Shown: piece after piece, positions 1 to 64,000 of the stretch
Position numbering within the stretch: position 1 is the stretch's first letter
Layout: the number at the start of each line of letters is the position of its first letter
NCBI RefSeq assembly: GCF_052324685.1
Contig: NW_027507037.1
Coordinates: forward strand, 1-64,000
Reading direction: 5' to 3'
Length of the DNA: 64,000 nucleotides
DNA from: Brachyhypopomus gauderio
Taxonomy: Eukaryota > Chordata > Actinopteri > Gymnotiformes > Hypopomidae
Position numbers and translations under genes: made by a program
The notes under the pieces: model-generated
What the model saw: the letters and a program-made list of their open reading frames with translations, nothing else
Database searches by the model: none
What the model was told of the DNA's origin: nothing

Positions 1-205
1 CTTCCAGTACAGATGACGGGAAACAATTTGAAAAAGACATTGGAACCCTTCTTCTTTTTCAGAGTTACATATAGCTTAGCATTTTTTACTTTGAAAGTTA
101 GGCAAGCATTGTTCCTCACAAGTTCAGCCCTGCTCATGTACCAAGTTGAGAATGCTGCTTTGGAGGACTCCAGACTTGAAAATTGCAAAAAAGAGATTAC
201 CACAG

Positions 206-287
206 GGTAGCGTGGCCGAGCGGTCTAAGGCGCTGGATTAAGGCTCCAGTCTCTGCGGAGGCGTGGGTTCGAATCCCACCGCTGCCA
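206..287 (+). tRNA. tRNA-Leu (AAG)
   Basis: Unit 1, class A1, consensus gene with T7 terminator. Confidence 0.94.
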
Positions 288-563
288 AGCAGTTTTTTTG
301 GAGATGGCAGAAGAATTCTTATACCTAATCACTCTCAACAACGGTGCCTGACCCAAGGCTGAAGAGCAGTTATTCGCATGATGGTAGCAGAGAGCCATGC
401 TACGATGCCATTTGCAAATGCTCATACCTGGCTTTGTTCTTAGGCGACATTGAAGACCCTGCAGTGTTTTGATAACAGGCAGGAAATGATGCATCTTTCC
501 TCTTCTGACAGAAGACAAATTCAGCTTCTTCTACAAGAATGTCAGCAAATACAGTCTTCCTGT

Positions 564-638
564 GGTAGCGTGTCTGAGTGGTCTAAGCACTGGATTTAGG
601 CTCCAGTCTCTGAGAAGGCATGGGATCGAATGCTGCCA
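564..638 (+). pseudogene. tRNA-Leu-like pseudogene
   Basis: Unit 1; a G is missing in the D arm (gtctaagcac), private. Confidence 0.88.
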
Positions 639-894
639 GCTGGTAACTTTACAATGATTCTTGCCTTTGTGTTCTCTTGAAAACCCTCTCTTCCAGTACA
701 GATGACGGGAAACAATTTGAAAAAGACATTGGAACCCTTCTTCTTTTTCAGAGTTACATATAGCTTAGCATTTTTTACTTTGAAAGTTAGGCAAGCATTG
801 TTCCTCACAAGTTCAGCCCTGCTCATGTACCAAGTTGAGAATGCTGCTTTGGAGGACTCCAGACTTGAAAATTGCAAAAAAGATATTACCACAG

Positions 895-976
895 GGTAGC
901 GTGGCCGAGCGGTCTAAGGCGCTGGATTAAGGCTCTAGTCTCTGCGGAGGCGTGGGTTCGAATCCCACCGCTGCCA
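895..976 (+). tRNA. tRNA-Leu (AAG)
   Basis: Unit 2, class A2. C41 is U, giving a G29-U41 wobble in the anticodon stem. Confidence 0.93.
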
Positions 977-1254
977 AGCAGTGTTTTTAGGAGATGGCAG
1001 AAGAATTCTTATACCTAATCACTCTCAACAACGGTGCCTGACCCAAGGCTGAAGAGCAGTTATTCGCATGATGGTAGCAGAGAGCCATGCTACGATGCCA
1101 TTTGCAAAATGCTCATACCTGGCTTTGTTCTTAGGCGACATTGAAGACCCTGCAGTGTTTTGATAACAGGCAGGAAATGATGCATCTTTCCTCTTCTGAC
1201 AGAAGACAAATTCAGCTTCTTCTACAAGAATGTCAGCAAATACAGTCTTCCTGT

Positions 1255-1330
1255 GGTAGCGTGTCTGAGTGGTCTAAGGCACTGGATTTAGGCTCCAGTC
1301 TCTGAGAAGGCATGGGATCGAATGCTGCCA
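1255..1330 (+). pseudogene. tRNA-Leu-like pseudogene
   Basis: Unit 2; standard form. Confidence 0.92.
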
Positions 1331-1586
1331 GCTGGTAACTTTACAATGATTCTTGCCTTTGTGTTCTCTTGAAAACCCTCTCTTCCAGTACAGATGACGG
1401 GAAACAATTTGAAAAAGACATTGGAACCCTTCTTCTTTTTCAGAGTTACATATAGCTTAGCATTTTTTACTTTGAAAGTTAGGCAAGCATTGTTCCTCAC
1501 AAGTTCAGCCCTGCTCATGTACCAAGTTGAGAATGCTGCTTTGGAGGACTCCAGACTTGAAAATTGCAAAAAAGATATTACCAAAG

Positions 1587-1668
1587 GGTAGCGTGGCCGA
1601 GCGGTCTAAGGCGCTGGATTTAGGCTCCAGTCTCTGCGGAGGCGTGGGTTCGAATCCCACCGCTGCCA
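1587..1668 (+). tRNA. tRNA-Leu (TAG)
   Basis: Unit 3, class K2-like: K flank and caatgg, then A-type gctacg and gacaaatt. Confidence 0.94.
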
Positions 1669-1946
1669 AGCAGTGTTTTTAAGAGATGGCAGAAGAATTC
1701 TTATACCTAATCACTCTCAACAATGGTGCCTGACCCAAGGCTGAAGAGCAGTCATTCGCATGATGGTAGCAGAGAGCCATGCTACGATGCCATTGCAAAT
1801 GCTCATACCTGGCTTTGTTCTTAGGCGACATTGAAGACCCTGCAGTGTTTTGATAACAGGCAGGAAATGATAGCATCTTTCCTCTTCTGACAGAAGACAA
1901 ATTCAGCTTCTTCTACAAGAATGTCAGCAAATACAGTCTTCCTGTG

Positions 1947-2021
1947 GGTAGCGTGTCTGAGTGGTCTAAGGCACTGGATTTAGGCTCCAGTCTCTGAGAG
2001 GCATGGGATCGAATGCTGCCA
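1947..2021 (+). pseudogene. tRNA-Leu-like pseudogene
   Basis: Unit 3; an A is missing in the variable arm, private. Confidence 0.88.
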
Positions 2022-2277
2022 GCTGGTAACTTTACAATGATTCTTGCCTTTGTGTTCTCTTGAAAACCCTCTCTTCCAGTACAGATGACGGGAAACAATT
2101 TGAAAAAGACATTGGAACCCTTCTTCTTTTTCAGAGTTACATATAGCTTAGCATTTTTTACTTTGAAAGTTAGGCAAGCATTGTTCCTCACAAGTTCAGC
2201 CCTGCTCATGTACCAAGTTGAGAATGCTGCTTTGGAGGACTCCAGACTTGAAAATTGCAAAAAAGATATTACCACAG

Positions 2278-2360
2278 GGTAGCGTGGCCGAGCGGTTCTA
2301 AGGCGCTGGATTAAGGCTCTAGTCTCTGCGGAGGCGTGGGTTCGAATCCCACCGCTGCCA
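2278..2360 (+). tRNA. tRNA-Leu (AAG), 83 nt as read
   Basis: Unit 4, class A2 with U41. A private extra T in the D loop is probably a consensus error. Confidence 0.87.
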
Positions 2361-2639
2361 AGCAGTGTTTTTAGGAGATGGCAGAAGAATTCTTATACCT
2401 AATCCACTCTCAACAACGGTGCCTGACCCAAGGCTGAAGAGCAGTTATTCGCATGATTGGTAGCAGAGAGCCATGCTACGATGCCATTTGCAAATGCTCA
2501 TACCTGGCTTTGTTCTTAGGCGACATTGAAGACCCTGCAGTGTTTTGATAACAGGCAGGAAATGATGCATCTTTCCTCTTCTGACAGAAGACAAATTCAG
2601 CTTCTTCTACAAGAATGTCAGCAAATACAGTCTTCCTGT

Positions 2640-2715
2640 GGTAGCGTGTCTGAGTGGTCTAAGGCACTGGATTTAGGCTCCAGTCTCTGAGAAGGCATGG
2701 GATTGAATGCTGCCA
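2640..2715 (+). pseudogene. tRNA-Leu-like pseudogene, gggattg form
   Basis: Unit 4; C-to-T in the T-loop remnant, as in units 7, 21, 24 and 38. Confidence 0.91.
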
Positions 2716-2972
2716 GCTGGTAACTTTACAATGATTCTTGCCTTTGTGTTCTCTTGAAAACCCTCTCTTCCAGTACAGATGACGGGAAACAATTTGAAAA
2801 AGACATTGGAACCCTTCTTCTTTTTCAGAGTTACATATAGCTTAGCATTTTTTACTTTGAAAGTTAGGCAAGCATTGTTCCTCACAAGTTCAGCCCTGCT
2901 CATGTACCAAGTTGAGAATGCTGCTTTGGAGGACTCCAGACTTGAAAATTGCAAAAAAGATCATTACCAAAG

Positions 2973-3054
2973 GGTAGCGTGGCCGAGCGGTCTAAGGCGC
3001 TGGATTTAGGCTCCAGTCTCTGCGGAGGCGTGGGTTCGAATCCCACCGCTGCCA
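2973..3054 (+). tRNA. tRNA-Leu (TAG)
   Basis: Unit 5, K flank. Spacer 1 is K-type as far as gccacg and A-type from gcagtg on, so this is a recombinant unit. Confidence 0.93.
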
Positions 3055-3331
3055 AGCAGTGTTTTTAAGAGATGGCAGAAGAATTCTTATACCTAATCAC
3101 TCTCAACAATGGTGCCTGACCCAAGGCTGAAGAGCAGTCATTCGCATGATGGTAGCAGAGAGCCATGCCACGATTGCCATTTGCAAATGCTCATACCTGG
3201 CTTTGTCTTAGGCGACATTGAAGACCCTGCAGTGTTTTGATAACAGGCAGGAAATGATGCATCTTTCCTCTTCTGACAGAAGACAAATTCAGCTTCTTCT
3301 ACAAGAATGTCAGCAAATACAGTCTTCCTGT

Positions 3332-3407
3332 GGTAGCGTGTCTGAGTGGTCTAAGGCACTGGATTTAGGCTCCAGTCTCTGAGAAGGCATGGGATCGAAT
3401 GCTGCCA
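3332..3407 (+). pseudogene. tRNA-Leu-like pseudogene
   Basis: Unit 5; standard form. Confidence 0.92.
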
Positions 3408-3663
3408 GCTGGTAACTTTACAATGATTCTTGCCTTTGTGTTCTCTTGAAAACCCTCTCTTCCAGTACAGATGACGGGAAACAATTTGAAAAAGACATTG
3501 GAACCCTTCTTCTTTTTCAGAGTTACATATAGCTTAGCATTTTTTACTTTGAAAGTTAGGCAAGCATTGTTCCTCACAAGTTCAGCCCTGCTCATGTACC
3601 AAGTTGAGAATGCTGCTTTGGAGGACTCCAGACTTGAAAATTGCAAAAAAGATTTTACCAAAG

Positions 3664-3746
3664 GGTAGCGTGGCCGAGCGGGTCTAAGGCGCTGGATTTA
3701 GGCTCCAGTCTCTGCGGAGGCGTGGGTTCGAATCCCACCGCTGCCA
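3664..3746 (+). tRNA. tRNA-Leu (TAG), 83 nt as read
   Basis: Unit 6, class K2 with flank gattttacc. A private extra G in the D loop is probably a consensus error. Confidence 0.87.
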
Positions 3747-4023
3747 AGCAGTGTTTTTAAGAGATGGCAGAAGAATTCTTATACCTAATCACTCTCAACA
3801 ATGGTGCCTGACCCAAGGCTGAAGAGCAGTCATTCGCATGATGGTAGCAGAGAGCCATGCTACGATGCCATTTGCAAATGCTCATACCTGGCTTTGTTCT
3901 TAGGCGACATTGAAGACCCTGCAGTGTTTTGATAACAGGCAGGAAATGATGCATCTTTCCTCTTCTGACAGAAGACAAATTCAGCTTCTTCTACAAGAAT
4001 GTCAGCAAATACAGTCTTCCTGT

Positions 4024-4099
4024 GGTAGCGTGTCTGAGTGGTCTAAGGCACTGGATTTAGGCTCCAGTCTCTGAGAAGGCATGGGATCGAATGCTGCCA
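4024..4099 (+). pseudogene. tRNA-Leu-like pseudogene
   Basis: Unit 6; standard form. Confidence 0.92.
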
Positions 4100-4357
4100 G
4101 CTGGTAACTTTACAATGATTCTTGCCTTTGTGTTCTCTTGAAAACCCTCTCTTCCAGTACAGATGACGGGAAACAATTTGAAAAAGACATTGGAACCCTT
4201 CTTCTTTTTCAGAGTTACATATAGCTTAGCATTTTTTACTTTGAAAGTTTAGGCAAGCATTGTTCCTCACAAGTTCAGCCCTGCTCATGTACCAAGTTGA
4301 GAATGCTGCTTTGGAGGACTCCAGACTTGAAAATTGCAAAAAAAGATATTACCACAG

Positions 4358-4439
4358 GGTAGCGTGGCCGAGCGGTCTAAGGCGCTGGATTAAGGCTCTA
4401 GTCTCTGCGGAGGCGTGGGTTCGAATCCCACCGCTGCCA
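4358..4439 (+). tRNA. tRNA-Leu (AAG)
   Basis: Unit 7, class A2 with U41. Confidence 0.93.
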
Positions 4440-4716
4440 AGCAGTGTTTTTAGGAGATGGCAGAAGAATTCTTATACCTAATCACTCTCAACAACGGTGC
4501 CTGACCCAAGGCTGAAGAGCAGTTATTCGCATGATGGTAGCAGAGAGCCATGCTACGATGCCATTTGCAAATGCTCATACCTGGCTTTGTTCTTAGGCGA
4601 CATTGAAGACCCTGCAGTGTTTTGATAACAGGCAGGAAATGATGCATCTTTCCTCTTCTGACAGAAGACAAATTCAGCTTCTTCTACAAGAATGTCAGCA
4701 AATACAGTCTTCCTGT

Positions 4717-4792
4717 GGTAGCGTGTCTGAGTGGTCTAAGGCACTGGATTTAGGCTCCAGTCTCTGAGAAGGCATGGGATTGAATGCTGCCA
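4717..4792 (+). pseudogene. tRNA-Leu-like pseudogene, gggattg form
   Basis: Unit 7; gggattg form. Confidence 0.91.
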
Positions 4793-5050
4793 GCTGGTAA
4801 CTTTACAATGATTCTTGCCTTTGTGTTCTCTTGAAAACCGCTCTCTTCCAGTACAGATGACGGGAAACAATTTGAAAAAGACATTGGAACCCTTCTTCTT
4901 TTTCAGAGTTACATATAGCTTAGCATTTTTTACTTTGAAAGTTAGGCAAGCATTGTTCCTCACAAGTTCAGCCCTGCTCATGTACCAAGTTGAGAATGCT
5001 GCTTTGGAGGACTCCAGACTTGAAAATTGCAAAAAAAGATATTACCAAAG

Positions 5051-5132
5051 GGTAGCGTGGCCGAGCGGTCTAAGGCGCTGGATTTAGGCTCCAGTCTCTG
5101 CGGAGGCGTGGGTTCGAATCCCACCGCTGCCA
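5051..5132 (+). tRNA. tRNA-Leu (TAG)
   Basis: Unit 8, class K1; last unit before HOR copy A. Confidence 0.94.
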
Positions 5133-5408
5133 AGCAGTGTTTTTAAGAGATGGCAGAAGAATTCTTATACCTAATCACTCTCAACAATGGTGCCTGACCC
5201 AAGGCTGAAGAGCAGTCATTCGCATGATGGTAGCAGAGAGCCATGCCACGATGCCATTTGCAAATGCTCATACCTGGCTTTGTTCTTAGGCGACATTGAA
5301 GACCCTGCGGTGTTTTGATAACAGGCAGGAAATGATGCATCTTTCCTCTTCTGACAGAAGAAAAATTCACCTTCTTCACAAGAATGTCAGCAAATGCAGT
5401 CTACCTGT

Positions 5409-5484
5409 GGTAGCGTGTCTGAGTGGTCTAAGGCACTGGATTTAGGCTCCAGTCTCTGAGAAGGCATGGGATCGAATGCTGCCA
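5409..5484 (+). pseudogene. tRNA-Leu-like pseudogene
   Basis: Unit 8; standard form. Confidence 0.92.
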
Positions 5485-5740
5485 GCTGGTAACTTTACAA
5501 TGATTCTTGCCTTTGTGTTCTCTTGAAAACCCTCTCTTCCAGTACAGATGACGGGAAACAATTTGAAAAAGACATTGGAACCCTTCTTCTTTTTCAGAGT
5601 TACATATAGCTTAGCATTTTTTACTTTGAAAGTTAGGCAAGCATTGTTCCTCACAAGTTCAGCCCTGCTCATGTACCAAGTTGAGAATGCTGCTTTGGAG
5701 GACTCCAGACTTGAAAATTGCAAAAAAGAGATTACCACAG

Positions 5741-5823
5741 GGTAGCGTGGCCGAGCGGTCTAAGGCGCTGGATTAAGGCTCCAGTCTCTGCGGAGGGCGT
5801 GGGTTCGAATCCCACCGCTGCCA
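5741..5823 (+). tRNA. tRNA-Leu (AAG), 83 nt as read
   Basis: Unit 9, class A1. A private extra G after the variable arm is probably a consensus error. Confidence 0.87.
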
Positions 5824-6101
5824 AGCAGTTTTTTTGGAGATGGCAGAAGAATTCTTATACCTAATCACTCTCAACAACGGTGCCTGACCCAAGGCTGAAG
5901 AGCAGTTATTCGCATGATGGTAGCAGAGAGCCATGCTACGATGCCATTTGCAAATGCTCATACCTGGCTTTGTTCTTAGGCGACATTGAAGACCCTGCAG
6001 TGTTTTTGATAACAGGCAGGAAATGATGCATCTTTCCTCTTCTGACAGAAGACAAATTCAGCTTCTTCTACAAGAATGTCAGCAAATACAGTCCTTCCTG
6101 T

Positions 6102-6177
6102 GGTAGCGTGTCTGAGTGGTCTAAGGCACTGGATTTAGGCTCCAGTCTCTGAGAAGGCATGGGATCGAATGCTGCCA
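6102..6177 (+). pseudogene. tRNA-Leu-like pseudogene
   Basis: Unit 9; standard form. Confidence 0.92.
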
Positions 6178-6435
6178 GCTGGTAACTTTACAATGATTCT
6201 TGCCTTTTGTGTTCTCTTGAAAACCCTCTCTTCCAGTACAGATGACGGGAAACAATTTGAAAAAGACATTGGAACCCTTCTTCTTTTTCAGAGTTACATT
6301 ATAGCTTAGCATTTTTTACTTTGAAAGTTAGGCAAGCATTGTTCCTCACAAGTTCAGCCCTGCTCATGTACCAAGTTGAGAATGCTGCTTTGGAGGACTC
6401 CAGACTTGAAAATTGCAAAAAAGATATTACCACAG

Positions 6436-6517
6436 GGTAGCGTGGGCCGAGCGGTCTAAGGCGCTGGATTAAGGCTCCAGTCTCTGCGGAGGCGTGGGTT
6501 CGAATCCACCGCTGCCA
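6436..6517 (+). tRNA. tRNA-Leu (AAG), with +1 and -1 as read
   Basis: Unit 10, class A2. An extra G near base 10 and a missing C in the T stem cancel in length; both are private. Confidence 0.82.
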
Positions 6518-6796
6518 AGCAGTGTTTTTAGGAGATGGCAGAAGAATTCTTATACCTAATCACTCTCAACAACGGTGCCTGACCCAAGGCTGAAGAGCAG
6601 TTATTCGCATTGATGGTAGCAGAGAGCCATGCTACGATGCCATTTGCAAATGCTCATACCTGGCTTTGTTCTTAGGCGACATTGAAGACCCTGCAGTGTT
6701 TTGATAACAGGCAGGAAATGATGCATCTTTCCTCTTCTGACAGAAGACAAATTCAGCTTCTTCTACAAGAATGTCAGCAAATACAGTCTTCCTGGT

Positions 6797-6872
6797 GGTA
6801 GCGTGTCTGAGTGGTCTAAGGCACTGGATTTAGGCTCCAGTCTCTGAGAAGGCATGGGATCGAATGCTGCCA
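6797..6872 (+). pseudogene. tRNA-Leu-like pseudogene
   Basis: Unit 10; standard form. Confidence 0.92.
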
Positions 6873-7128
6873 GCTGGTAACTTTACAATGATTCTTGCCT
6901 TTGTGTTCTCTTGAAAACCCTCTCTTCCAGTACAGATGACGGGAAACAATTTGAAAAAGACATTGGAACCCTTCTTCTTTTTCAGAGTTACATATAGCTT
7001 AGCATTTTTTACTTTGAAAGTTAGGCAAGCATTGTTCCTCACAAGTTCAGCCCTGCTCATGTACCAAGTTGAGAATGCTGCTTTGGAGGACTCCAGACTT
7101 GAAAATTGCAAAAAAGATATTACCAAAG

Positions 7129-7209
7129 GGTAGCGTGGCCGAGCGGTCTAAGGTGCTGGATTTAGGCTCCAGTCTCTGCGGAGGCGTGGGTTCGAATCCA
7201 CCGCTGCCA
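7129..7209 (+). tRNA. tRNA-Leu (TAG), 81 nt as read
   Basis: Unit 11, class K1 with U25, shared with units 28 and 42. The missing T-stem C is not shared with them and is suspect. Confidence 0.82.
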
Positions 7210-7490
7210 AGCAGTGTTTTTAAGAGATGGCAGAAGAATTCTTATACCTAATCACTCTCAACAATGGTGCCTGACCCAAGGCTGAAGAGCAGTCATTCGC
7301 ATGATGGTAGCAGAGAGCCATGCCACGATGCCATTTGCAAATGCTCATACCTGGCTTTGTTCTTAGGCGACATTGAAGACCCTGCGGTGTTTTGATAACA
7401 GGCAGGAAATGATGCATCTTGTCCTCTTCTGACAGAAGAAAAAATTCACCTTCTTCCACAAGAATGTCAGCAAATGCAGTCTTCCTGTGT

Positions 7491-7566
7491 GGTAGCGTGT
7501 CTGAGTGGTCTAAGGCACTGGATTTAGGCTCCAGTCTCTGAGAAGGCATGGGATCGAATGCTGCCA
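7491..7566 (+). pseudogene. tRNA-Leu-like pseudogene
   Basis: Unit 11; standard form. Confidence 0.92.
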
Positions 7567-7822
7567 GCTGGTAACTTTACAATGATTCTTGCCTTTGTGT
7601 TCTCTTGAAAAACCCTCTCTTCCAGTACAGATGACGGGAAACAATTGAAAAAGACATTGGAACCCTTCTTCTTTTTCAGAGTTACATATAGCTTAGCATT
7701 TTTTACTTTGAAAGTTAGGCAAGCATTGTTCCTCACAAGTTCAGCCCTGCTCATGTACCAAGTTGAGAATGCTGCTTTGGAGGACTCCAGACTTGAAAAT
7801 TGCAAAAAAGATATTACCAAAG

Positions 7823-7906
7823 GGTAGCGTGGCCGAGCGGTTCTAAGGCGCTGGATTTAGGCTCCAGTCTCTGCGGAGGGCGTGGGTTCGAATCCCACCG
7901 CTGCCA
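7823..7906 (+). tRNA. tRNA-Leu (TAG), 84 nt as read
   Basis: Unit 12, class K1. Extra T in the D loop and extra G after the variable arm, both absent from the matching units 29 and 43. Confidence 0.82.
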
Positions 7907-8185
7907 AGCAGTGTTTTTAAGAGATGGCAGAAGAATTCTTATACCTAATCACTCTCAACAATGGTGCCTGACCCAAGGCTGAAGAGCAGTCATTCGCATG
8001 ATGGTAGCAGAGAGCCATGCCACGATGCCATTTGCAAATGCTCATACCTGGCTTTGTTCTTAGGCGACATTGAAGACCCTGCGGTGTTTTGATAACAGGC
8101 AGGAAATGATGCATCTTTCCTCTTCTGACAGAAGAAAAAATTCACCTTCTTCCACAAGAATGTCAGCAAATGCAGTCTACCTGTG

Positions 8186-8261
8186 GGTAGCGTGTCTGAG
8201 TGGTCTAAGGCACTGGATTTAGGCTCCAGTCTCTGAGAAGGCATGGGATCGAATGCTGCCA
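8186..8261 (+). pseudogene. tRNA-Leu-like pseudogene
   Basis: Unit 12; standard form. Confidence 0.92.
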
Positions 8262-8517
8262 GCTGGTAACTTTACAATGATTCTTGCCTTTGTGTTCTCT
8301 TGAAAACCCTCTCTTCCAGTACAGATGACGGGAAACAATTTGAAAAAGACATTGGAACCCTTCTTCTTTTTCAGAGTTACATATAGCTTAGCATTTTTTA
8401 CTTTGAAAGTTAGGCAAGCATTGTTCCTCACAAGTTCAGCCCTGCTCATGTACCAAGTTGAGAATGCTGCTTTGGAGGACTCCAGACTTGAAAATTGCAA
8501 AAAAGAGATTACCACAG

Positions 8518-8599
8518 GGTAGCTTGGCCGAGCGGTCTAAGGAGCTGGATTAAGGCTCCAGTCTCTGCGGAGGTGTGGGTTCGAATCCCACCGCTGCCA
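8518..8599 (+). tRNA. tRNA-Leu (AAG), U7/A25/U48 variant
   Basis: Unit 13, class A1. Three changes shared with units 30 and 44, so real and inherited with the HOR. Confidence 0.78.
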
Positions 8600-8875
8600 A
8601 GCAGTTTTTTTGGAGATGGCAGAAGAATTCTTATACCTAATCACTCTCAACAACGGTGCCTGACCCAAGGCTGAAGAGCAGTTATTCGCATGATGGTAGC
8701 AGAGAGCCATGCTACGATGCCATTTGCAAATGCTCATACCTGGCTTTGTTCTTAGGCGACATTGAAGACCCTGCAGTGTTTTGATAACAGGCAGGAAATG
8801 ATGCATCTTTCCTCTTCTGACAGAAGACAAATTCAGCTTCTTCTACAAGAATGTCAGCAAATACAGTCTTCCTGT

Positions 8876-8951
8876 GGTAGCGTGTCTGAGTGGTCTAAGG
8901 CACTGGATTTAGGCTCCAGTCTCTGAGAAGGCATGGGATCGAATGCTGCCA
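8876..8951 (+). pseudogene. tRNA-Leu-like pseudogene
   Basis: Unit 13; standard form. Confidence 0.92.
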
Positions 8952-9208
8952 GCTGGTAACTTTACAATGATTCTTGCCTTTGTGTTCTCTTGAAAACCCT
9001 CTCTTCCAGTACAGATGACGGGAAACAATTTGAAAAAGACATTGGAACCCTTCTTCTTTTTCAGAGTTACATATAGCTTAGCATTTTTTACTTTGAAAGT
9101 TAGGCAAGCATTGTTCCTCACAAGTTCAGCCCTGCTCATGTACCAAGTTGAGAATGCTGCTTTGGAGGACTCCAGACTTGAAAATTTGCAAAAAAGATAT
9201 TACCACAG

Positions 9209-9290
9209 GGTAGCGTGGCCGAGCGGTCTAAGGCGCTGGATTAAGGCTCCAGTCTCTGCGGAGGCGTGGGTTCGAATCCCACCGCTGCCA
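9209..9290 (+). tRNA. tRNA-Leu (AAG)
   Basis: Unit 14, class A2, consensus gene. Confidence 0.94.
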
Positions 9291-9568
9291 AGCAGTGTTT
9301 TTAGGAGATGGCAGAAGAATTTCTTATACCTAATCACTCTCAACAACGGTGCCTGACCCAAGGCTGAAGAGCAGTTATTCGCATGATGGTAGCAGAGAGC
9401 CATGCTACGATGCCATTTGCAAATGCTCATACCTGGCTTTGTTCTTAGGCGACATTGAAGACCCTGCAGTGTTTTGATAACAGGCAGGAAATGATGCATC
9501 TTTCCTCTTCTGACAGAAGACAAATTCAGCTTCTTCTACAAGAATGTCAGCAAATACAGTCTTCCTGT

Positions 9569-9644
9569 GGTAGCGTGTCTGAGTGGTCTAAGGCACTGGA
9601 TTTAGGCTCCAGTCTCTGAGAAGGCATGGGATCGAATGCTGCCA
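9569..9644 (+). pseudogene. tRNA-Leu-like pseudogene
   Basis: Unit 14; standard form. Confidence 0.92.
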
Positions 9645-9900
9645 GCTGGTAACTTTACAATGATTCTTGCCTTTGTGTTCTCTTGAAAACCCTCTCTTCC
9701 AGTACAGATGACGGGAAACAATTTGAAAACGACATTGGAACCCTTCTTCTTTTTCAGAGTTACATATAGCTTAGCATTTTTTACTTTGAAAGTTAGGCAA
9801 GCATTGTTCCTCACAAGTTCAGCCCTGCTCATGTACCAAGTTGAGAATGCTGCTTTGGAGGACTCCAGACTTGAAAATTGCAAAAAAGATATTACCAAAG

Positions 9901-9983
9901 GGTAGCGTGGCCGAGCGGTCTAAGGCGCTGGATTTAGGCTCCAGTCTCTGCGGAGGCGTGGGGTTCGAATCCCACCGCTGCCA
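9901..9983 (+). tRNA. tRNA-Leu (TAG), 83 nt as read
   Basis: Unit 15, class K1, gaaaacgac marker upstream. A private extra G in the T stem is probably an error. Confidence 0.86.
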
Positions 9984-10261
9984 AGCAGTGTTTTTAAGAG
10001 ATGGCAGAAGAATTCTTATACCTAATCACTCTCAACAATGGTGCCTGACCCAAGGCTGAAGAGCAGTCCATTCGCATGATGGTAGCAGAGAGCCATGCCA
10101 CGATGCCATTTGCAAATGCTCATACCTGGCTTTGTTCTTAGGCGACATTGAAGACCCTGCGGTGTTTTGATAACAGGCAGGAAATGATGCATCTTTCCTC
10201 TTCTGACAGAAGAAAAATTCACCTTCTTCCACAAGAATGTCAGCAAATGCAGTCTTCCTGT

Positions 10262-10337
10262 GGTAGCGTGTCTGAGTGGTCTAAGGCACTGGATTTAGGC
10301 TCCAGTCTCTGAGAAGGCATGGGATCGAATGCTGCCA
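10262..10337 (+). pseudogene. tRNA-Leu-like pseudogene
   Basis: Unit 15; standard form. Confidence 0.92.
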
Positions 10338-10591
10338 GCTGGTAACTTTACAATGATTCTTGCCTTTGTGTTCTCTTGAAAACCCTCTCTTCCAGTACAG
10401 ATGACGGGAAACAATTTGAAAAAGACATTGGAACCCTTCTTCTTTTTCAGTTACATATAGCTTAGCATTTTTTACTTTGAAAGTTAGGCAAGCATTGTTC
10501 CTCACAAGTTCAGCCCTGCTCATGTACCAAGTTGAGAATGCTGCTTTGGAGGACTCCAGACTTGAAAATTGCAAAAAAGATATTACCAAAG

Positions 10592-10674
10592 GGTAGCGTG
10601 GCCGAGCGGTCTAAGGCGCTGGATTTAGGCTCCAGTCTCTGCGGAGGCGTGGGATTCGAATCCCACCGCTGCCA
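10592..10674 (+). tRNA. tRNA-Leu (TAG), 83 nt as read
   Basis: Unit 16, class K1, 2-nt deletion upstream. A private extra A breaks the B box as read; it is absent from units 33, 47 and 52. Confidence 0.84.
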
Positions 10675-10954
10675 AGCAGTGTTTTTAAGAGATGGCAGAA
10701 GAATTCTTATACCCTAATCACTCTCAACAATGGTGCCTGACCCAAGGCTGAAGAGCAGTCATTCGCATGATGGTAGCAGAGAGCCATGCCACGATGCCAT
10801 TTGCAAATGCTCATACCTGGCTTTGTTCTTAGGCGACATTGAAGACCCTGCGGTGTTTTTGATAACAGGCAGGAAATGATGCATCTTTCCTCTTCTGACA
10901 GAAGAAAAATTCACCTTCTTCCACAAGAATGTCAGCAAATGCAGTCTTCCTGTG

Positions 10955-11032
10955 GGTAGCGTGTCCTGAGTGGTTCTAAGGCACTGGATTTAGGCTCCAG
11001 TCTCTGAGAAGGCATGGGATCGAATGCTGCCA
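10955..11032 (+). pseudogene. tRNA-Leu-like pseudogene, 78 nt as read
   Basis: Unit 16; two private insertions in the D arm. Confidence 0.88.
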
Positions 11033-11290
11033 GCTGGTAACTTTACAATGATTCTTGCCTTTGTGTTTCTCTTGAAAACCCTCTCTTCCAGTACAGATGA
11101 CGGGAAACAATTTGAAAAAGACATTGGAACCCTTCTTCTTTTTCAGAGTTACATATAGCTTAGCATTTTTTACTTTGAAAGTTAGGCAAGCATTGTTCCT
11201 CACAAGTTCAGCCCTGCTCATGTACCAAGTTGAGAATGCTGCTTTGGAGGACTCCAGACTTGAAAATTGCAAAAAAAGATATTACCAAAG

Positions 11291-11372
11291 GGTAGCGTAG
11301 GCCGAGCGGTCTAAGGCGCTGGATTTAGGCTCCAGTCTCTGCGGAGGCGTGGGTTCGAATCCACCGCTGCCA
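11291..11372 (+). tRNA. tRNA-Leu (TAG), with +1 and -1 as read
   Basis: Unit 17, class K1. An extra A near base 9 and a missing T-stem C are private. Confidence 0.82.
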
Positions 11373-11651
11373 AGCAGTGTTTTTAAGAGATGGCAGAAGA
11401 ATTCTTATACCTAATCACTCTCAACAATGGTGCCTGACCCAAGGCTGAAGAGCAGTCATTCGCATGATGGTAGCAGAGAGCCATGCCACGATGCCATTTG
11501 CAAATGCTCATACCTGGCTTTTGTTCTTAGGCGACATTGAAGACCCTGCGGTGTTTTGATAACAGGCAGGAAATTGATGCATCTTTCCTCTTCTGACAGA
11601 AGAAAAATTCACCTTCTTCCACAAGAATGTCAGCAAATGCAGTCTACCTGT

Positions 11652-11727
11652 GGTAGCGTGTCTGAGTGGTCTAAGGCACTGGATTTAGGCTCCAGTCTCT
11701 GAGAAGGCATGGGATCGAATGCTGCCA
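11652..11727 (+). pseudogene. tRNA-Leu-like pseudogene
   Basis: Unit 17; standard form. Confidence 0.92.
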
Positions 11728-11984
11728 GCTGGTAACTTTACAATGATTCTTGCCTTTGTGTTCTCTTGAAAACCCTCTCTTCCAGTACAGATGACGGGAA
11801 ACAATTTGAAAAAGACATTGGAACCCTTCTTCTTTTTCAGAGTTACATATAGCTTAGGCATTTTTTACTTTGAAAGTTAGGCAAGCATTGTTCCTCACAA
11901 GTTCAGCCCTGCTCATGTACCAAGTTGAGAATGCTGCTTTGGAGGACTCCAGACTTGAAAATTGCAAAAAAGAGATTACCACAG

Positions 11985-12066
11985 GGTAGCTTGGCCGAGC
12001 GGTCTAAGGCGCTGGATTAAGGCTCCAGTCTCTGCGGAGGCGTGGGTTCGAATCCCACCGCTGCCA
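11985..12066 (+). tRNA. tRNA-Leu (AAG), U7 variant
   Basis: Unit 18, class A1. G7 is U, shared with units 35, 49 and 54. The terminator reads T8. Confidence 0.85.
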
Positions 12067-12343
12067 AGCAGTTTTTTTTGGAGATGGCAGAAGAATTCTT
12101 ATACCTAATCACTCTCAACAACGGTGCCTGACCCAAGGCTGAAGAGCAGTTATTCGCATGATGGTAGCAGAGAGCCATGCTACGATGCCATTTGCAAATG
12201 CTCATACCTGGCTTTGTTCTTAGGCGACATTGAAGACCCTGCAGTGTTTTTGATAACAGGCAGGAAATGATGCATCTTTCCTCTTCTGACAGAAGACAAA
12301 TTCAGCTTCTTCTACAAGAATGTCAGCAATACAGTCTTCCTGT

Positions 12344-12419
12344 GGTAGCGTGTCTGAGTGGTCTAAGGCACTGGATTTAGGCTCCAGTCTCTGAGAAGGC
12401 ATGGGATCGAATGCTGCCA
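12344..12419 (+). pseudogene. tRNA-Leu-like pseudogene
   Basis: Unit 18; standard form. Confidence 0.92.
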
Positions 12420-12675
12420 GCTGGTAACTTTACAATGATTCTTGCCTTTGTGTTCTCTTGAAAACCCTCTCTTCCCAGTACAGATGACGGGAAACAATTT
12501 GAAAAAGACATTGGAACCCTTCTTCTTTTTTAGAGTTACATATAGCTTAGCATTTTTTACTTTGAAAGTTAGGCAAGCATTGTTCCTCACAAGTTCAGCC
12601 CTGCTCATGTACCAAGTTGAGAATGCTGCTTTGGAGGACTCCAGACTTGAAAATTGCAAAAAGATATTACCACAG

Positions 12676-12757
12676 GGTAGCGTGGCCGAGCGGTCTAAGG
12701 CGCTGGATTAAGGCTCCAGTCTCTGCGGAGGCGTGGGTTCGAATCCCACCGCTGCCA
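12676..12757 (+). tRNA. tRNA-Leu (AAG)
   Basis: Unit 19, class A2, cttttttagag marker upstream. Confidence 0.94.
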
Positions 12758-13035
12758 AGCAGTGTTTTTAGGAGATGGCAGAAGAATTCTTATACCTAAT
12801 CACTCTCAACAACGGTGCCTGACCCAAGGCTGAAGAGGCAGTTATTCGCATGATGGTAGCAGAGAGCCATGCTACGATGCCATTTGCAAATGCTCATACC
12901 TGGCTTTGTTCTTAGGCGACATTGAAGACCCTGCAGTGTTTTGATAACAGGCAGGAAATGATGCATCTTTCCTCTTCTGACAGAAGACAAATTCAGCTTC
13001 TTCTACAAGAATGTCAGCAAATACAGTCTTCCTGT

Positions 13036-13111
13036 GGTAGCGTGTCTGAGTGGTCTAAGGCACTGGATTTAGGCTCCAGTCTCTGAGAAGGCATGGGATC
13101 GAATGCTGCCA
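13036..13111 (+). pseudogene. tRNA-Leu-like pseudogene
   Basis: Unit 19; standard form. Confidence 0.92.
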
Positions 13112-17603: not shown

Positions 17604-17608
17604 AGCAG

Positions 17609-50591: not shown

Positions 50592-50673
50592 GGTAGCGTG
50601 GCCGAGCGGTCTAAGGCGCTGGATTAAGGCTCCAGTCTCTGCGGAGGCGTGGGTTCGAATCCCACCGCTGCCA
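50592..50673 (+). tRNA. tRNA-Leu (AAG)
   Basis: Unit 74, class A3 gene; spacer 1 switches to K1 bases from gccacg onward. Confidence 0.96.
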
Positions 50674-50950
50674 AGCATTGTTTTTAGGAGATGGCAGAAC
50701 AATTCTTATACCTAATCACTCTCAACAACGGTGCCTGACCCAAGGCTGAAGAGCAGTTATTCGCATGATGGTAGCAGAGAGCCATGCCACGATGCCATTT
50801 GCAAATGCTCATACCTGGCTTTGTTCTTAGGCGACATTGAAGACCCTGCGGTGTTTTGATAACAGGCAGGAAATGATGCATCTTTCCTCTTCTGACAGAA
50901 GAAAAATTCACCTTCTTCCACAAGAATGTCAGCAAATGCAGTCTACCTGT

Positions 50951-51026
50951 GGTAGCGTGTCTGAGTGGTCTAAGGCACTGGATTTAGGCTCCAGTCTCTG
51001 AGAAGGCATGGGATCGAATGCTGCCA
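50951..51026 (+). pseudogene. tRNA-Leu-like pseudogene
   Basis: Unit 74; standard form. Confidence 0.93.
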
Positions 51027-51282
51027 GCTGGTAACTTTACAATGATTCTTGCCTTTGTGTTCTCTTGAAAACCCTCTCTTCCAGTACAGATGACGGGAAA
51101 CAATTTGAAAAAGACATTGGAACCCTTCTTCTTTTTCAGAGTTACATATAGCTTAGCATTTTTTACTTTGAAAGTTAGGCAAGCATTGTTCCTCACAAGT
51201 TCAGCCCTGCTCATGTACCAAGTTGAGAATGCTGCTTTGGAGGACTCCAGACTTGAAAATTGCAAAAAAGAGATTACCACAG

Positions 51283-51364
51283 GGTAGCTTGGCCGAGCGG
51301 TCTAAGGCGCTGGATTAAGGCTCCAGTTTCTGCGGAGGCGTGGGTTCGAATCCCACCGCTGCCA
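51283..51364 (+). tRNA. tRNA-Leu (AAG), U7 variant
   Basis: Unit 75, class A1 with U7. A private C-to-T in the variable arm (ccagTttctg) makes a wobble in its stem. Confidence 0.85.
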
Positions 51365-51640
51365 AGCAGTTTTTTTGGAGATGGCAGAAGAATTCTTATA
51401 CCTAATCACTCTCAACAACGGTGCCTGACCCAAGGCTGAAGAGCAGTTATTCGCATGATGGTAGCAGAGAGCCATGCTACGATGCCATTTGCAAATGCTC
51501 ATACCTGGCTTTGTTCTTAGGCGACATTGAAGACCCTGCAGTGTTTTGATAACAGGCAGGAAATGATGCATCTTTCCTCTTCTGACAGAAGACAAATTCA
51601 GCTTCTTCTACAAGAATGTCAGCAAATACAGTCTTCCTGT

Positions 51641-51716
51641 GGTAGCGTGTCTGAGTGGTCTAAGGCACTGGATTTAGGCTCCAGTCTCTGAGAAGGCATG
51701 GGATCGAATGCTGCCA
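51641..51716 (+). pseudogene. tRNA-Leu-like pseudogene
   Basis: Unit 75; standard form. Confidence 0.93.
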
Positions 51717-51972
51717 GCTGGTAACTTTACAATGATTCTTGCCTTTGTGTTCTCTTGAAAACCCTCTCTTCCAGTACAGATGACGGGAAACAATTTGAAA
51801 AAGACATTGGAACCCTTCTTCTTTTTCAGAGTTACATATAACTTAGCATTTTTTACTTTGAAAGTTAGGCAAGCATTGTTCCTCACAAGTTCAGCCCTGC
51901 TCATGTACCAAGTTGAGAATGCTGCTTTGGAGGACTCCAGACTTGAAAATTGCAAAAAAGATATTACCAAAG

Positions 51973-52054
51973 GGTAGCGTGGCCGAGCGGTCTAAGGCGC
52001 TGGATTAAGGCTCCAGTCTCTGCGGAGGCGTGGGTTCGAATCCCACCGCTGCCA
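51973..52054 (+). tRNA. tRNA-Leu (AAG)
   Basis: Unit 76, class A3 gene; spacer 1 switches to K1 bases already at caatgg. Confidence 0.96.
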
Positions 52055-52331
52055 AGCATTGTTTTTAGGAGATGGCAGAACAATTCTTATACCTAATCAC
52101 TCTCAACAATGGTGCCTGACCCAAGGCTGAAGAGCAGTCATTCGCATGATGGTAGCAGAGAGCCATGCCACGATGCCATTTGCAAATGCTCATACCTGGC
52201 TTTGTTCTTAGGCGACATTGAAGACCCTGCGGTGTTTTGATAACAGGCAGGAAATGATGCATCTTTCCTCTTCTGACAGAAGAAAAATTCACCTTCTTCC
52301 ACAAGAATGTCAGCAAATGCAGTCTTCCTGT

Positions 52332-52407
52332 GGTAGCGTGTCTGAGTGGTCTAAGGCACTGGATTTAGGCCCCAGTCTCTGAGAAGGCATGGGATCGAAT
52401 GCTGCCA
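52332..52407 (+). pseudogene. tRNA-Leu-like pseudogene, C39 form
   Basis: Unit 76; C39 form behind an AAG gene, which marks the unit as recombinant. Confidence 0.93.
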
Positions 52408-52663
52408 GCTGGTAACTTTACAATGATTCTTGCCTTTGTGTTCTCTTGAAAACCCTCTCTTCCAGTACAGATGACGGGAAACAATTTGAAAAAGACATTG
52501 GAACCCTTCTTCTTTTTCAGAGTTACATATAGCTTAGCATTTTTTACTTTGAAAGTTAGGCAAGCATTGTTCCTCACAAGTTCAGCCCTGCTCATGTACC
52601 AAGTTGAGAATGCTGCTTTGGAGGACTCCAGACTTGAAAATTGCAAAAAAGAGATTACCACAG

Positions 52664-52745
52664 GGTAGCGTGGCCGAGCGGTCTAAGGCGCTGGATTAAG
52701 GCTCCAGTCTCTGCGGAGGCGTGGGTTCGAATCCCACCGCTGCCA
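52664..52745 (+). tRNA. tRNA-Leu (AAG)
   Basis: Unit 77, class A1, consensus gene. Confidence 0.96.
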
Positions 52746-53021
52746 AGCAGTTTTTTTGGAGATGGCAGAAGAATTCTTATACCTAATCACTCTCAACAAC
52801 GGTGCCTGACCCAAGGCTGAAGAGCAGTTATTCGCATGATGGTAGCAGAGAGCCATGCTACGATGCCATTTGCAAATGCTCATACCTGGCTTTGTTCTTA
52901 GGCGACATTGAAGACCCTGCAGTGTTTTGATAACAGGCAGGAAATGATGCATCTTTCCTCTTCTGACAGAAGACAAATTCAGCTTCTTCTACAAGAATGT
53001 CAGCAAATACAGTCTTCCTGT

Positions 53022-53097
53022 GGTAGCGTGTCTGAGTGGTCTAAGGCACTGGATTTAGGCTCCAGTCTCTGAGAAGGCATGGGATCGAATGCTGCCA
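53022..53097 (+). pseudogene. tRNA-Leu-like pseudogene
   Basis: Unit 77; standard form. Confidence 0.93.
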
Positions 53098-53353
53098 GCT
53101 GGTAACTTTACAATGATTCTTGCCTTTGTGTTCTCTTGAAAACCCTCTCTTCCAGTACAGATGACGGGAAACAATTTGAAAAAGACATTGGAACCCTTCT
53201 TCTTTTTCAGAGTTACATATAACTTAGCATTTTTTACTTTGAAAGTTAGGCAAGCATTGTTCCTCACAAGTTCAGCCCTGCTCATGTACCAAGTTGAGAA
53301 TGCTGCTTTGGAGGACTCCAGACTTGAAAATTGCAAAAAAGATATTACCAAAG

Positions 53354-53435
53354 GGTAGCGTGGCCGAGCGGTCTAAGGCGCTGGATTAAGGCTCCAGTCT
53401 CTGCGGAGGCGTGGGTTCGAATCCCACCGCTGCCA
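53354..53435 (+). tRNA. tRNA-Leu (AAG)
   Basis: Unit 78, class A3 gene with the same spacer switch as unit 74. Confidence 0.96.
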
Positions 53436-53712
53436 AGCATTGTTTTTAGGAGATGGCAGAACAATTCTTATACCTAATCACTCTCAACAACGGTGCCTGA
53501 CCCAAGGCTGAAGAGCAGTTATTCGCATGATGGTAGCAGAGAGCCATGCCACGATGCCATTTGCAAATGCTCATACCTGGCTTTGTTCTTAGGCGACATT
53601 GAAGACCCTGCGGTGTTTTGATAACAGGCAGGAAATGATGCATCTTTCCTCTTCTGACAGAAGAAAAATTCACCTTCTTCCACAAGAATGTCAGCAAATG
53701 CAGTCTACCTGT

Positions 53713-53788
53713 GGTAGCGTGTCTGAGTGGTCTAAGGCACTGGATTTAGGCTCCAGTCTCTGAGAAGGCATGGGATCGAATGCTGCCA
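53713..53788 (+). pseudogene. tRNA-Leu-like pseudogene
   Basis: Unit 78; standard form. Confidence 0.93.
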
Positions 53789-54044
53789 GCTGGTAACTTT
53801 ACAATGATTCTTGCCTTTGTGTTCTCTTGAAAACCCTCTCTTCCAGTACAGATGACGGGAAACAATTTGAAAAAGACATTGGAACCCTTCTTCTTTTTCA
53901 GAGTTACATATAGCTTAGCATTTTTTACTTTGAAAGTTAGGCAAGCATTGTTCCTCACAAGTTCAGCCCTGCTCATGTACCAAGTTGAGAATGCTGCTTT
54001 GGAGGACTCCAGACTTGAAAATTGCAAAAAAGAGATTACCACAG

Positions 54045-57933: not shown

Positions 57934-58189
57934 GCTGGTAACTTTACAATGATTCTTGCCTTTGTGTTCTCTTGAAAACCCTCTCTTCCAGTACAGATGA
58001 CGGGAAACAATTTGAAAAAGACATTGGAACCCTTCTTCTTTTTCAGAGTTACATATAGCTTAGCATTTTTTACTTTGAAAGTTAGGCAAGCATTGTTCCT
58101 CACAAGTTCAGCCCTGCTCATGTACCAAGTTGAGAATGCTGCTTTGGAGGACTCCAGACTTGAAAATTGCAAAAAAGATATTACCACAG

Positions 58190-58271
58190 GGTAGCGTGGC
58201 CGAGCGGTCTAAGGCGCTGGATTAAGGCTCCAGTCTCTGCGGAGGCGTGGGTTCGAATCCCACCGCTGCCA
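58190..58271 (+). tRNA. tRNA-Leu (AAG)
   Basis: Unit 85, class A2. Confidence 0.96.
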
Positions 58272-58548
58272 AGCAGTGTTTTTAGGAGATGGCAGAAGAA
58301 TTCTTATACCTAATCACTCTCAACAACGGTGCCTGACCCAAGGCTGAAGAGCAGTTATTCGCATGATGGTAGCAGAGAGCCATGCTACGATGCCATTTGC
58401 AAATGCTCATACCTGGCTTTGTTCTTAGGCGACATTGAAGACCCTGCAGTGTTTTGATAACAGGCAGGAAATGATGCATCTTTCCTCTTCTGACAGAAGA
58501 CAAATTCAGCTTCTTCTACAAGAATGTCAGCAAATACAGTCTTCCTGT

Positions 58549-58624
58549 GGTAGCGTGTCTGAGTGGTCTAAGGCACTGGATTTAGGCTCCAGTCTCTGAG
58601 AAGGCATGGGATCGAATGCTGCCA
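58549..58624 (+). pseudogene. tRNA-Leu-like pseudogene
   Basis: Unit 85; standard form. Confidence 0.93.
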
Positions 58625-58880
58625 GCTGGTAACTTTACAATGATTCTTGCCTTTGTGTTCTCTTGAAAACCCTCTCTTCCAGTACAGATGACGGGAAACA
58701 ATTTGAAAAAGACATTGGAACCCTTCTTCTTTTTCAGAGTTACATATAGCTTAGCATTTTTTACTTTGAAAGTTAGGCAAGCATTGTTCCTCACAAGTTC
58801 AGCCCTGCTCATGTACCAAGTTGAGAATGCTGCTTTGGAGGACTCCAGACTTGAAAATTGCAAAAAAGAGATTACCACAG

Positions 58881-61642: not shown

Positions 61643-61724
61643 GGTAGCGTGGCCGAGCGGTCTAAGGCGCTGGATTAAGGCTCCAGTCTCTGCGGAGGCG
61701 TGGGTTCGAATCCCACCGCTGCCA
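61643..61724 (+). tRNA. tRNA-Leu (AAG)
   Basis: Unit 90, class A3 with atatagctt upstream; spacer 1 has a private caacAgtgcc and the K-type gcggtg. Confidence 0.96.
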
Positions 61725-62001
61725 AGCATTGTTTTTAGGAGATGGCAGAAGAATTCTTATACCTAATCACTCTCAACAACAGTGCCTGACCCAAGGCTGA
61801 AGAGCAGTTATTCGCATGATGGTAGCAGAGAGCCATGCTACGATGCCATTTGCAAATGCTCATACCTGGCTTTGTTCTTAGGCGACATTGAAGACCCTGC
61901 GGTGTTTTGATAACAGGCAGGAAATGATGCATCTTTCCTCTTCTGACAGAAGACAAATTCAGCTTCTTCTACAAGAATGTCAGCAAATACAGTCTTCCTG
62001 T

Positions 62002-62077
62002 GGTAGCGTGTCTGAGTGGTCTAAGGCACTGGATTTAGGCTCCAGTCTCTGAGAAGGCATGGGATCGAATGCTGCCA
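62002..62077 (+). pseudogene. tRNA-Leu-like pseudogene
   Basis: Unit 90; standard form. Confidence 0.93.
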
Positions 62078-62333
62078 GCTGGTAACTTTACAATGATTCT
62101 TGCCTTTGTGTTCTCTTGAAAACCCTCTCTTCCAGTACAGATGACGGGAAACAATTTGAAAAAGACATTGGAACCCTTCTTCTTTTTCAGAGTTACATAT
62201 AACTTAGCATTTTTTACTTTGAAAGTTAGGCAAGCATTGTTCCTCACAAGTTCAGCCCTGCTCATGTACCAAGTTGAGAATGCTGCTTTGGAGGACTCCA
62301 GACTTGAAAATTGCAAAAAAGATATTACCAAAG

Positions 62334-62415
62334 GGTAGCGTGGCCGAGCGGTCTAAGGCGCTGGATTAAGGCTCCAGTCTCTGCGGAGGCGTGGGTTCGA
62401 ATCCCACCGCTGCCA
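62334..62415 (+). tRNA. tRNA-Leu (AAG)
   Basis: Unit 91, class A3 with K-type gcggtg in spacer 1. Confidence 0.96.
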
Positions 62416-62692
62416 AGCATTGTTTTTAGGAGATGGCAGAAGAATTCTTATACCTAATCACTCTCAACAACGGTGCCTGACCCAAGGCTGAAGAGCAGTT
62501 ATTCGCATGATGGTAGCAGAGAGCCATGCTACGATGCCATTTGCAAATGCTCATACCTGGCTTTGTTCTTAGGCGACATTGAAGACCCTGCGGTGTTTTG
62601 ATAACAGGCAGGAAATGATGCATCTTTCCTCTTCTGACAGAAGACAAATTCAGCTTCTTCTACAAGAATGTCAGCAAATACAGTCTTCCTGT

Positions 62693-62768
62693 GGTAGCGT
62701 GTCTGAGTGGTCTAAGGCACTGGATTTAGGCTCCAGTCTCTGAGAAGGCATGGGATCGAATGCTGCCA
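62693..62768 (+). pseudogene. tRNA-Leu-like pseudogene
   Basis: Unit 91; standard form. Confidence 0.93.
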
Positions 62769-63024
62769 GCTGGTAACTTTACAATGATTCTTGCCTTTGT
62801 GTTCTCTTGAAAACCCTCTCTTCCAGTACAGATGACGGGAAACAATTTGAAAAAGACATTGGAACCCTTCTTCTTTTTCAGAGTTACATATAGCTTAGCA
62901 TTTTTTACTTTGAAAGTTAGGCAAGCATTGTTCCTCACAAGTTCAGCCCTGCTCATGTACCAAGTTGAGAATGCTGCTTTGGAGGACTCCAGACTTGAAA
63001 ATTGCAAAAAAGATATTACCACAG

Positions 63025-63106
63025 GGTAGCGTGGCCGAGCGGTCTAAGGCGCTGGATTAAGGCTCCAGTCTCTGCGGAGGCGTGGGTTCGAATCCCACCG
63101 CTGCCA
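63025..63106 (+). tRNA. tRNA-Leu (AAG)
   Basis: Unit 92, class A2. Confidence 0.96.
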
Positions 63107-63383
63107 AGCAGTGTTTTTAGGAGATGGCAGAAGAATTCTTATACCTAATCACTCTCAACAACGGTGCCTGACCCAAGGCTGAAGAGCAGTTATTCGCATG
63201 ATGGTAGCAGAGAGCCATGCTACGATGCCATTTGCAAATGCTCATACCTGGCTTTGTTCTTAGGCGACATTGAAGACCCTGCAGTGTTTTGATAACAGGC
63301 AGGAAATGATGCATCTTTCCTCTTCTGACAGAAGACAAATTCAGCTTCTTCTACAAGAATGTCAGCAAATACAGTCTTCCTGT

Positions 63384-63459
63384 GGTAGCGTGTCTGAGTG
63401 GTCTAAGGCACTGGATTTAGGCTCCAGTCTCTGAGAAGGCATGGGATCGAATGCTGCCA
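63384..63459 (+). pseudogene. tRNA-Leu-like pseudogene
   Basis: Unit 92; standard form, last in the window. Confidence 0.93.
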
Positions 63460-63715
63460 GCTGGTAACTTTACAATGATTCTTGCCTTTGTGTTCTCTTG
63501 AAAACCCTCTCTTCCAGTACAGATGACGGGAAACAATTTGAAAAAGACATTGGAACCCTTCTTCTTTTTCAGAGTTACATATAACTTAGCATTTTTTACT
63601 TTGAAAGTTAGGCAAGCATTGTTCCTCACAAGTTCAGCCCTGCTCATGTACCAAGTTGAGAATGCTGCTTTGGAGGACTCCAGACTTGAAAATTGCAAAA
63701 AAGATATTACCAAAG

Positions 63716-63797
63716 GGTAGCGTGGCCGAGCGGTCTAAGGCGCTGGATTAAGGCTCCAGTCTCTGCGGAGGCGTGGGTTCGAATCCCACCGCTGCCA
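63716..63797 (+). tRNA. tRNA-Leu (AAG)
   Basis: Unit 93, class A3 with gcagaaCaattc; its spacer 1 is cut by the window end. Confidence 0.96.
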
Positions 63798-64000
63798 AGC
63801 ATTGTTTTTAGGAGATGGCAGAACAATTCTTATACCTAATCACTCTCAACAACGGTGCCTGACCCAAGGCTGAAGAGCAGTTATTCGCATGATGGTAGCA
63901 GAGAGCCATGCTACGATGCCATTTGCAAATGCTCATACCTGGCTTTGTTCTTAGGCGACATTGAAGACCCTGCAGTGTTTTGATAACAGGCAGGAAATGA

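Follow-up and report, generated by a model that had tools for sequence, protein, structure and literature searches.

Organisation of the array

The DNA analysed here is a stretch of 64,000 nucleotides (hereafter, the window) from Brachyhypopomus gauderio, covering positions 1 to 64,000 of the forward strand of contig NW_027507037.1 (assembly GCF_052324685.1). The entire window is filled, without interruption, by a head-to-tail array of a short unit that carries leucine transfer RNA genes (tRNA-Leu). Scanning the window with a 20-base anchor gave 93 occurrences, the first at position 5 and the last at 63515, and alignment of the 92 anchor-to-anchor units yielded a unit consensus of 691 bp; the GC content is 45%. 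The anchors are spaced 688-697 bp apart across the left 26 units and 689-691 bp afterwards, with a single exception of 612 bp. Each of the 92 complete units is made up of one live-looking tRNA-Leu gene (T1), one dead tRNA-Leu copy (T2) and flanks. An earlier sequence-only reading had proposed 93 apparently complete tRNA-Leu loci, one about every 691 bp, in an array running off both window edges. The period and the 93 anchors hold, and both edges indeed cut the array, with no end seen inside; the complete genes, however, number 92 according to both ARAGORN and Rfam, the remaining one (in unit 55) being truncated. The array and an example unit are as follows.

1-64000, + strand: whole array, 93 anchors and 92 complete units (anchor scan, unit alignment)
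57989-58679, + strand: example polished unit, unit 84 (unit alignment)
58190-58271, + strand: T1 of unit 84, tRNA-Leu(AAG) (ARAGORN, Rfam)
58279-58283, + strand: run of five T behind T1 of unit 84, an RNA polymerase III (Pol III) terminator by motif
58549-58624, + strand: T2 of unit 84, degenerate tRNA-Leu with a TAG-like anticodon (Rfam score, T-arm lesion)

Comparisons among units were based on a polished set of 65 complete units, namely units 26-91 minus the damaged unit 55. Their pairwise identity lies between 97.3 and 100% (mean 98.8%), and a chance origin of the repetition was therefore dismissed. This set contains 28 distinct types, the commonest comprising 11 units. A head-to-tail unit containing a tRNA gene, high identity between units and exchange among them, as described below, place the locus among the tandem tRNA gene (tDNA) arrays, or tDNA macrosatellites.

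At its own cut-offs, Rfam found no family besides tRNA in the window; three scanned units also gave weak hits to YrlA, mascRNA and other families, which lay so far under the cut-offs that they were taken as chance. The longest period allowed in our Tandem Repeats Finder run was 500, which leaves the 691-bp array unlisted; its single row is a 14-base duplication within unit 55. A reading frame as the real content of the unit was set aside; the longest stop-free run in three joined units is 72 codons on the + strand and 105 codons on the - strand.

The live-looking gene and its dead partner

The + strand carries every one of the 92 tRNA-Leu genes called by ARAGORN, and Rfam RF00005 at its gathering score arrived at the same number (55 in positions 1-38700 and 37 in 38000-64000, the overlap being empty). 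T1 scores between 40.3 and 60.1 bits against a cut-off of 29, with 92 of the 93 slots passing. By ARAGORN, the anticodon of the complete copies is AAG in 63 and TAG in 29, and TAG accounts for 27 of the 55 genes left of 38 kb vs 2 of the 37 right of it. The cloverleaf was tallied over 68 T1 slots, starting with the unit at 17322. Canonical T1 occupies 55 of these slots (40 AAG, 15 TAG) and five others also retain every pair, bringing the slots with all cloverleaf pairs intact to 60; an acceptor pair (position 7 with 75) is broken in seven, two of which are also broken at 10 with 26, and one slot holds a truncated T1.

A run of four to eight T stands a few bases 3' of T1 in all 92 complete copies, and the canonical B box and A box words occur 91 and 88 times in the window, respectively. 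T1 thus has what is expected of a functional nuclear tRNA-Leu gene, that is, a cloverleaf over the family cut-off together with both internal promoter boxes and a terminator of oligo-T type. Because the A box, the B box and the terminator are retained, the T1 copies should, judging from these motifs, be competent Pol III templates. Additionally, T1 differs by one base, in the variable arm, from the human tRNA-Leu(AAG). The ten bases round the T1 terminator (58276-58285 in unit 84; consensus 288-297) are unusually variable, yet the T-run always counts at least four. Persistence of this run as a signal of selection was considered and dropped, the control T-runs being unreadable in 16/65 and 21/65 units at two of three runs. 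Minimum-free-energy folds failed to separate T1 from T2 (z from -1.56 to -1.88) and were not used as evidence.

T2 starts 359 bases past the T1 start and reaches 18.0 bits in the three units scanned, vs the cut-off of 29; it falls short of a canonical cloverleaf over the family cut-off, and ARAGORN made no call at any T2 across the window. Six T-arm bases are missing, the A and B boxes are altered, and the word that marks the T-arm lesion occurs 92 times, once per complete unit. In the one unit examined, no run of at least four T lies within 105 bases 3' of T2. Relative to T1(TAG), T2 shows eight substitutions and a gap, and by our reading of the alignment four of the eight (C12T, C16T, G27A and G58A, numbered as in T1) are changes such as loss of methylated CpG produces. 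The TAG-like anticodon of T2 raises the possibility that the ancestral gene was TAG. A shared origin of the two half-units beyond the tRNA sequences themselves found no support: the spacers of one unit align with a score of 18, which was reached by 138 of 300 shuffles.

CpG loss is typical of methylated genomes, e.g., those of vertebrates. In one unit the observed/expected ratio of CpG is 0.95 in T1, 0.39 in T2 and 0.30 and 0.11 in the spacers, a pattern indicating that the T1 CpGs escaped this loss, whether through selection or through absence of methylation, until the amplification at least. At two of the eight T1 CpGs (sites 227 and 258), C has changed to T in one or more polished units; the protection is therefore incomplete. 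Within the array, variable sites are not depleted in T1 (6/82 vs 29/533 in the spacer, Fisher p 0.45), and the mean pairwise difference is smaller in T2 (0.0016) than in T1 (0.0108), the spacer parts ranging from 0.0016 to 0.0191. As T1 is as variable as the spacer and T2 less diverse than T1, there is no sign of selection on single copies, although six sites give little power.

Exchange between units

Blocks of units recur along the array, and several units combine variants in ways that reveal their mixed ancestry, as in the following stretches.

17504-24666, + strand: exact block of 7163 bp, identical to 27173-34335, 14 units off (base-level comparison)
30885-34335, + strand: exact block of 3451 bp, identical to 34337-37787, a tandem duplication of five units (base-level comparison)
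38038-38649, + strand: damaged unit 55 of 612 bp, T1 (TAG) cut in the T arm, 14-base duplication (anchor spacing, Tandem Repeats Finder)
50391-53843, + strand: recombinant units 73, 75 and 77, an AAG gene with spacer variants otherwise associated with TAG (unit types)

When unit types are defined by 40 variable columns, their order is nested: units 8-16 repeat as 25-33 and again as 39-47, and units 24-34 repeat as 38-48. The longest repeated run of unit types is 11, or 9 in the polished part, whereas 2000 shuffles in either case never gave a run above 5. Nested blocks of this kind are the picture that unequal exchange in the recent past, together with conversion or crossing-over, would be expected to leave. 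The anticodon takes part in this traffic. An anticodon T is found in 30 of the 92 units, 29 of which share three neighbouring variants, the thirtieth being the truncated unit 55, while among the 62 units with an anticodon A just unit 75 has two of the three TAG-linked neighbouring variants. The anticodon base and a variant lying 277 bases beyond it are found in each of their four possible combinations (59, 24, 6 and 3 of the 92 units), which demonstrates exchange between units. The anticodon behaves as any linked variant, being shuffled among units by exchange. With homogenised units, nested blocks and exchange between them, the earlier proposal of a tRNA-Leu gene in a satellite-like organisation is supported.

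Unit 55 is the sole unit with a truncated T1. It sits at the transition between the TAG-rich left and the AAG-rich right of the window, and its 14-base tandem duplication covers 38312-38341.

Quality of the left 17.5 kb

The left end of the window differs in kind from the rest.

1-17504, no strand: stretch with raw-read-like errors (private alignment cells)

Among the left 26 units, 89 alignment cells are absent from every polished unit, i.e., 66 insertions, 19 deletions and 4 substitutions, some adjacent cells reflecting a single event. In the polished set of 65, which leaves out unit 55, there are 9 substitutions confined to one unit, and no indel is so confined. Because 85 private indels are found within bases 1-17504 and none in the 65 polished units beyond, this part is probably unpolished long-read sequence. 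An excess of insertions is a trait of older PacBio reads, and 37 of the 85 private indel cells lie in or beside runs of at least three equal bases, vs 30% of positions. Consequently, T1 copies of 81, 83 and 84 bases within 1-17504 should not count as biological variants. The raw-read-like indels end abruptly at 17504, a mark of an unpolished or gap-filled assembly stretch.

The left part repeats the unit-type order of the polished part, with errors of its own and with three additional units (22-24), and this combination speaks for a real array, though neither its overall length nor its block count is certain. The sequence-only reading had named an assembly artefact as the result that would overturn it. 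That concern applies in part: the left 17.5 kb has an unpolished look and the length of the array is uncertain, whereas the tandem organisation itself looks real.

Origin and maintenance of the array

On the evidence of sequence, we consider it likely that the locus is a nuclear tDNA macrosatellite whose copies are competent for Pol III and undergo concerted evolution, in an organism whose genome is CpG-depleted; this depletion and the closeness of T1 to the human gene point to a vertebrate. In this scenario, head-to-tail amplification would have started from a segment of about 691 bp that carried a working T1 and an already dead T2; unequal exchange and gene conversion, by copying blocks of units, would then keep the array homogeneous, and the same exchange would spread single variants, the anticodon base included. 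We infer that tandem-repeat dynamics are the main reason for the persistence of the array and that expression is confined to some of its copies. Some observations weigh against this scenario: all cloverleaf pairs in 60 of the 68 polished-part T1 slots would also fit selection for function, bases 1-17504 look unpolished, and the exact 7-kb identities could also stem from assembly.

Selection for function is the core of the idea of an expressed gene battery, in which a large dose of tRNA-Leu(AAG/UAG) would be favoured, possibly in a particular tissue or developmental stage, for example the oocyte. We regard such a battery as rather unlikely. It would account for the 55 canonical slots and the 60 with all pairs among 68, for the terminator behind 92 of 92 complete copies and for the retention of CpGs in T1 only, but it sits poorly with a T1 whose variable sites are not fewer than those of the spacer (6/82 vs 29/533, bearing in mind the little power of six sites), with a dead T2 less diverse than T1 (0.0016 vs 0.0108) and with an acceptor pair broken in 7 of 68 copies. 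A still smaller chance is given to the array being largely a product of assembly, a small array having been inflated or repeated by the assembler. The 85 private indel cells in 1-17504, the reappearance of series of unit types from the left within the polished part, and the exact duplicates of 7163 and 3451 bp in polished sequence are all in keeping with such inflation; the 28 distinct types in 65 polished units are not, and neither are the raw-looking part's own errors and its units 22-24, which are missing from the next block, or the unit types that the right part (units 56-91) has to itself.

Two further explanations carry little weight. That the array is a chromatin element (a boundary, or a TFIIIC or condensin site), its tRNA product being irrelevant, seems very improbable: T1 retains the whole tRNA and its terminator, which exceeds what TFIIIC binding needs, and two units gave zero matches to three CTCF-like words, a search cruder than one with a matrix. 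What speaks for a chromatin role is the retention of A and B box words in most copies and the implication of the human 1q23.3 tDNA repeat as a boundary (PMC4041453). Least probable of all is a tRNA-derived short interspersed nuclear element (SINE) family in tandem, for although tRNA-like sequence in high copy number is what such a retroelement would bring, the strict head-to-tail period with constant flanks, the full canonical cloverleaf with its terminator, and tRNA as the only family at Rfam cut-offs are all at odds with it.

A speculative extension of the macrosatellite evolving in concert, and one that we hold to be unlikely, is a drifting anticodon. Exchange between units, and not selection on single genes, would then set the ratio of tRNA-Leu(AAG) to tRNA-Leu(UAG) templates (63:29 here), and turnover of the array could shift the genome-wide supply of isoacceptors between individuals. 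Provided that the array truly has this size, this one locus would exceed the total of Leu(AAG) and Leu(UAG) templates of the human genome; it would also offer a compact natural test of whether surplus tDNA is silenced, and a natural test of anticodon identity under concerted evolution and of the conversion of a gene into a satellite. At the same time, caution is suggested for tRNA counts taken from assemblies with unpolished arrays of this kind.

Comparison with known systems

The 3.18-kb tRNA array of Xenopus laevis combines several different tRNA genes in each unit. It resembles the present array in being a vertebrate, head-to-tail array of high copy number, from which ours differs by its single amino acid and much shorter unit. 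A 24-base spacer word had no exact match in viral and prokaryote contig collections, and neither a 26-base stretch from the second spacer nor the whole T1 with two degenerate bases matched viral contigs; in collections of viruses and prokaryotes, such negatives say little. When one unit was compared with phages in a search for distant similarity, 49 bases of tRNA-Leu turned up in two records of one phage, i.e., general tRNA likeness. Judged by titles and the beginnings of abstracts, no 691-bp tRNA-Leu satellite was found in the literature, and passages in PMC9974502, PMC11168930, PMC12360845 and PMC8450103 have no bearing on such a satellite.

Among the nearest systems, along with the SYY cluster of Arabidopsis, is the human 1q23.3 tRNA tandem repeat, described as a GC-rich unit of 7.3 kb in 9-43 units per allele with about 98% identity, each unit bearing five tRNA genes for four amino acids on both strands and being bound by CTCF (PMC4041453). 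Both arrays consist of head-to-tail, vertebrate-type tDNA units of about 98% identity with tRNA-Leu among the genes, but here the unit has 691 bp and 45% GC, one amino acid and one strand, with more than 92 units in the window. For fishes, a 2010 survey reports tDNAs to be strongly clustered in stickleback (87%) and zebrafish (65%) and distinguishes homogeneous from heterogeneous clusters (PMC2888827).

Further parallels are found outside the animals. The SYY cluster of Arabidopsis contains serine and tyrosine genes, is silenced in most tissues and is reactivated in root-cap cells (PMC12308677). It shares with our array the tandem tDNA units, the major and minor gene variants, the tRNA-like pseudogenes and a core expanded via tandem duplication, and differs in being a plant cluster for serine and tyrosine. 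In the protist Entamoeba, each unit of the tRNA arrays holds between one and five tRNA types, the copies within an isolate are uniform, and concerted evolution has been proposed for them (PMC2652664). The tandem tRNA-gene units and the uniform copies are common to both, whereas some Entamoeba species have short tandem repeats between the genes and no clear evidence of pseudogenes is reported for those arrays; here, one pseudogene accompanies every unit. Tandem tDNA arrays as such are therefore already known, and what sets the present array apart is the short unit, the single amino acid, the constant dead partner and the mixed anticodons.

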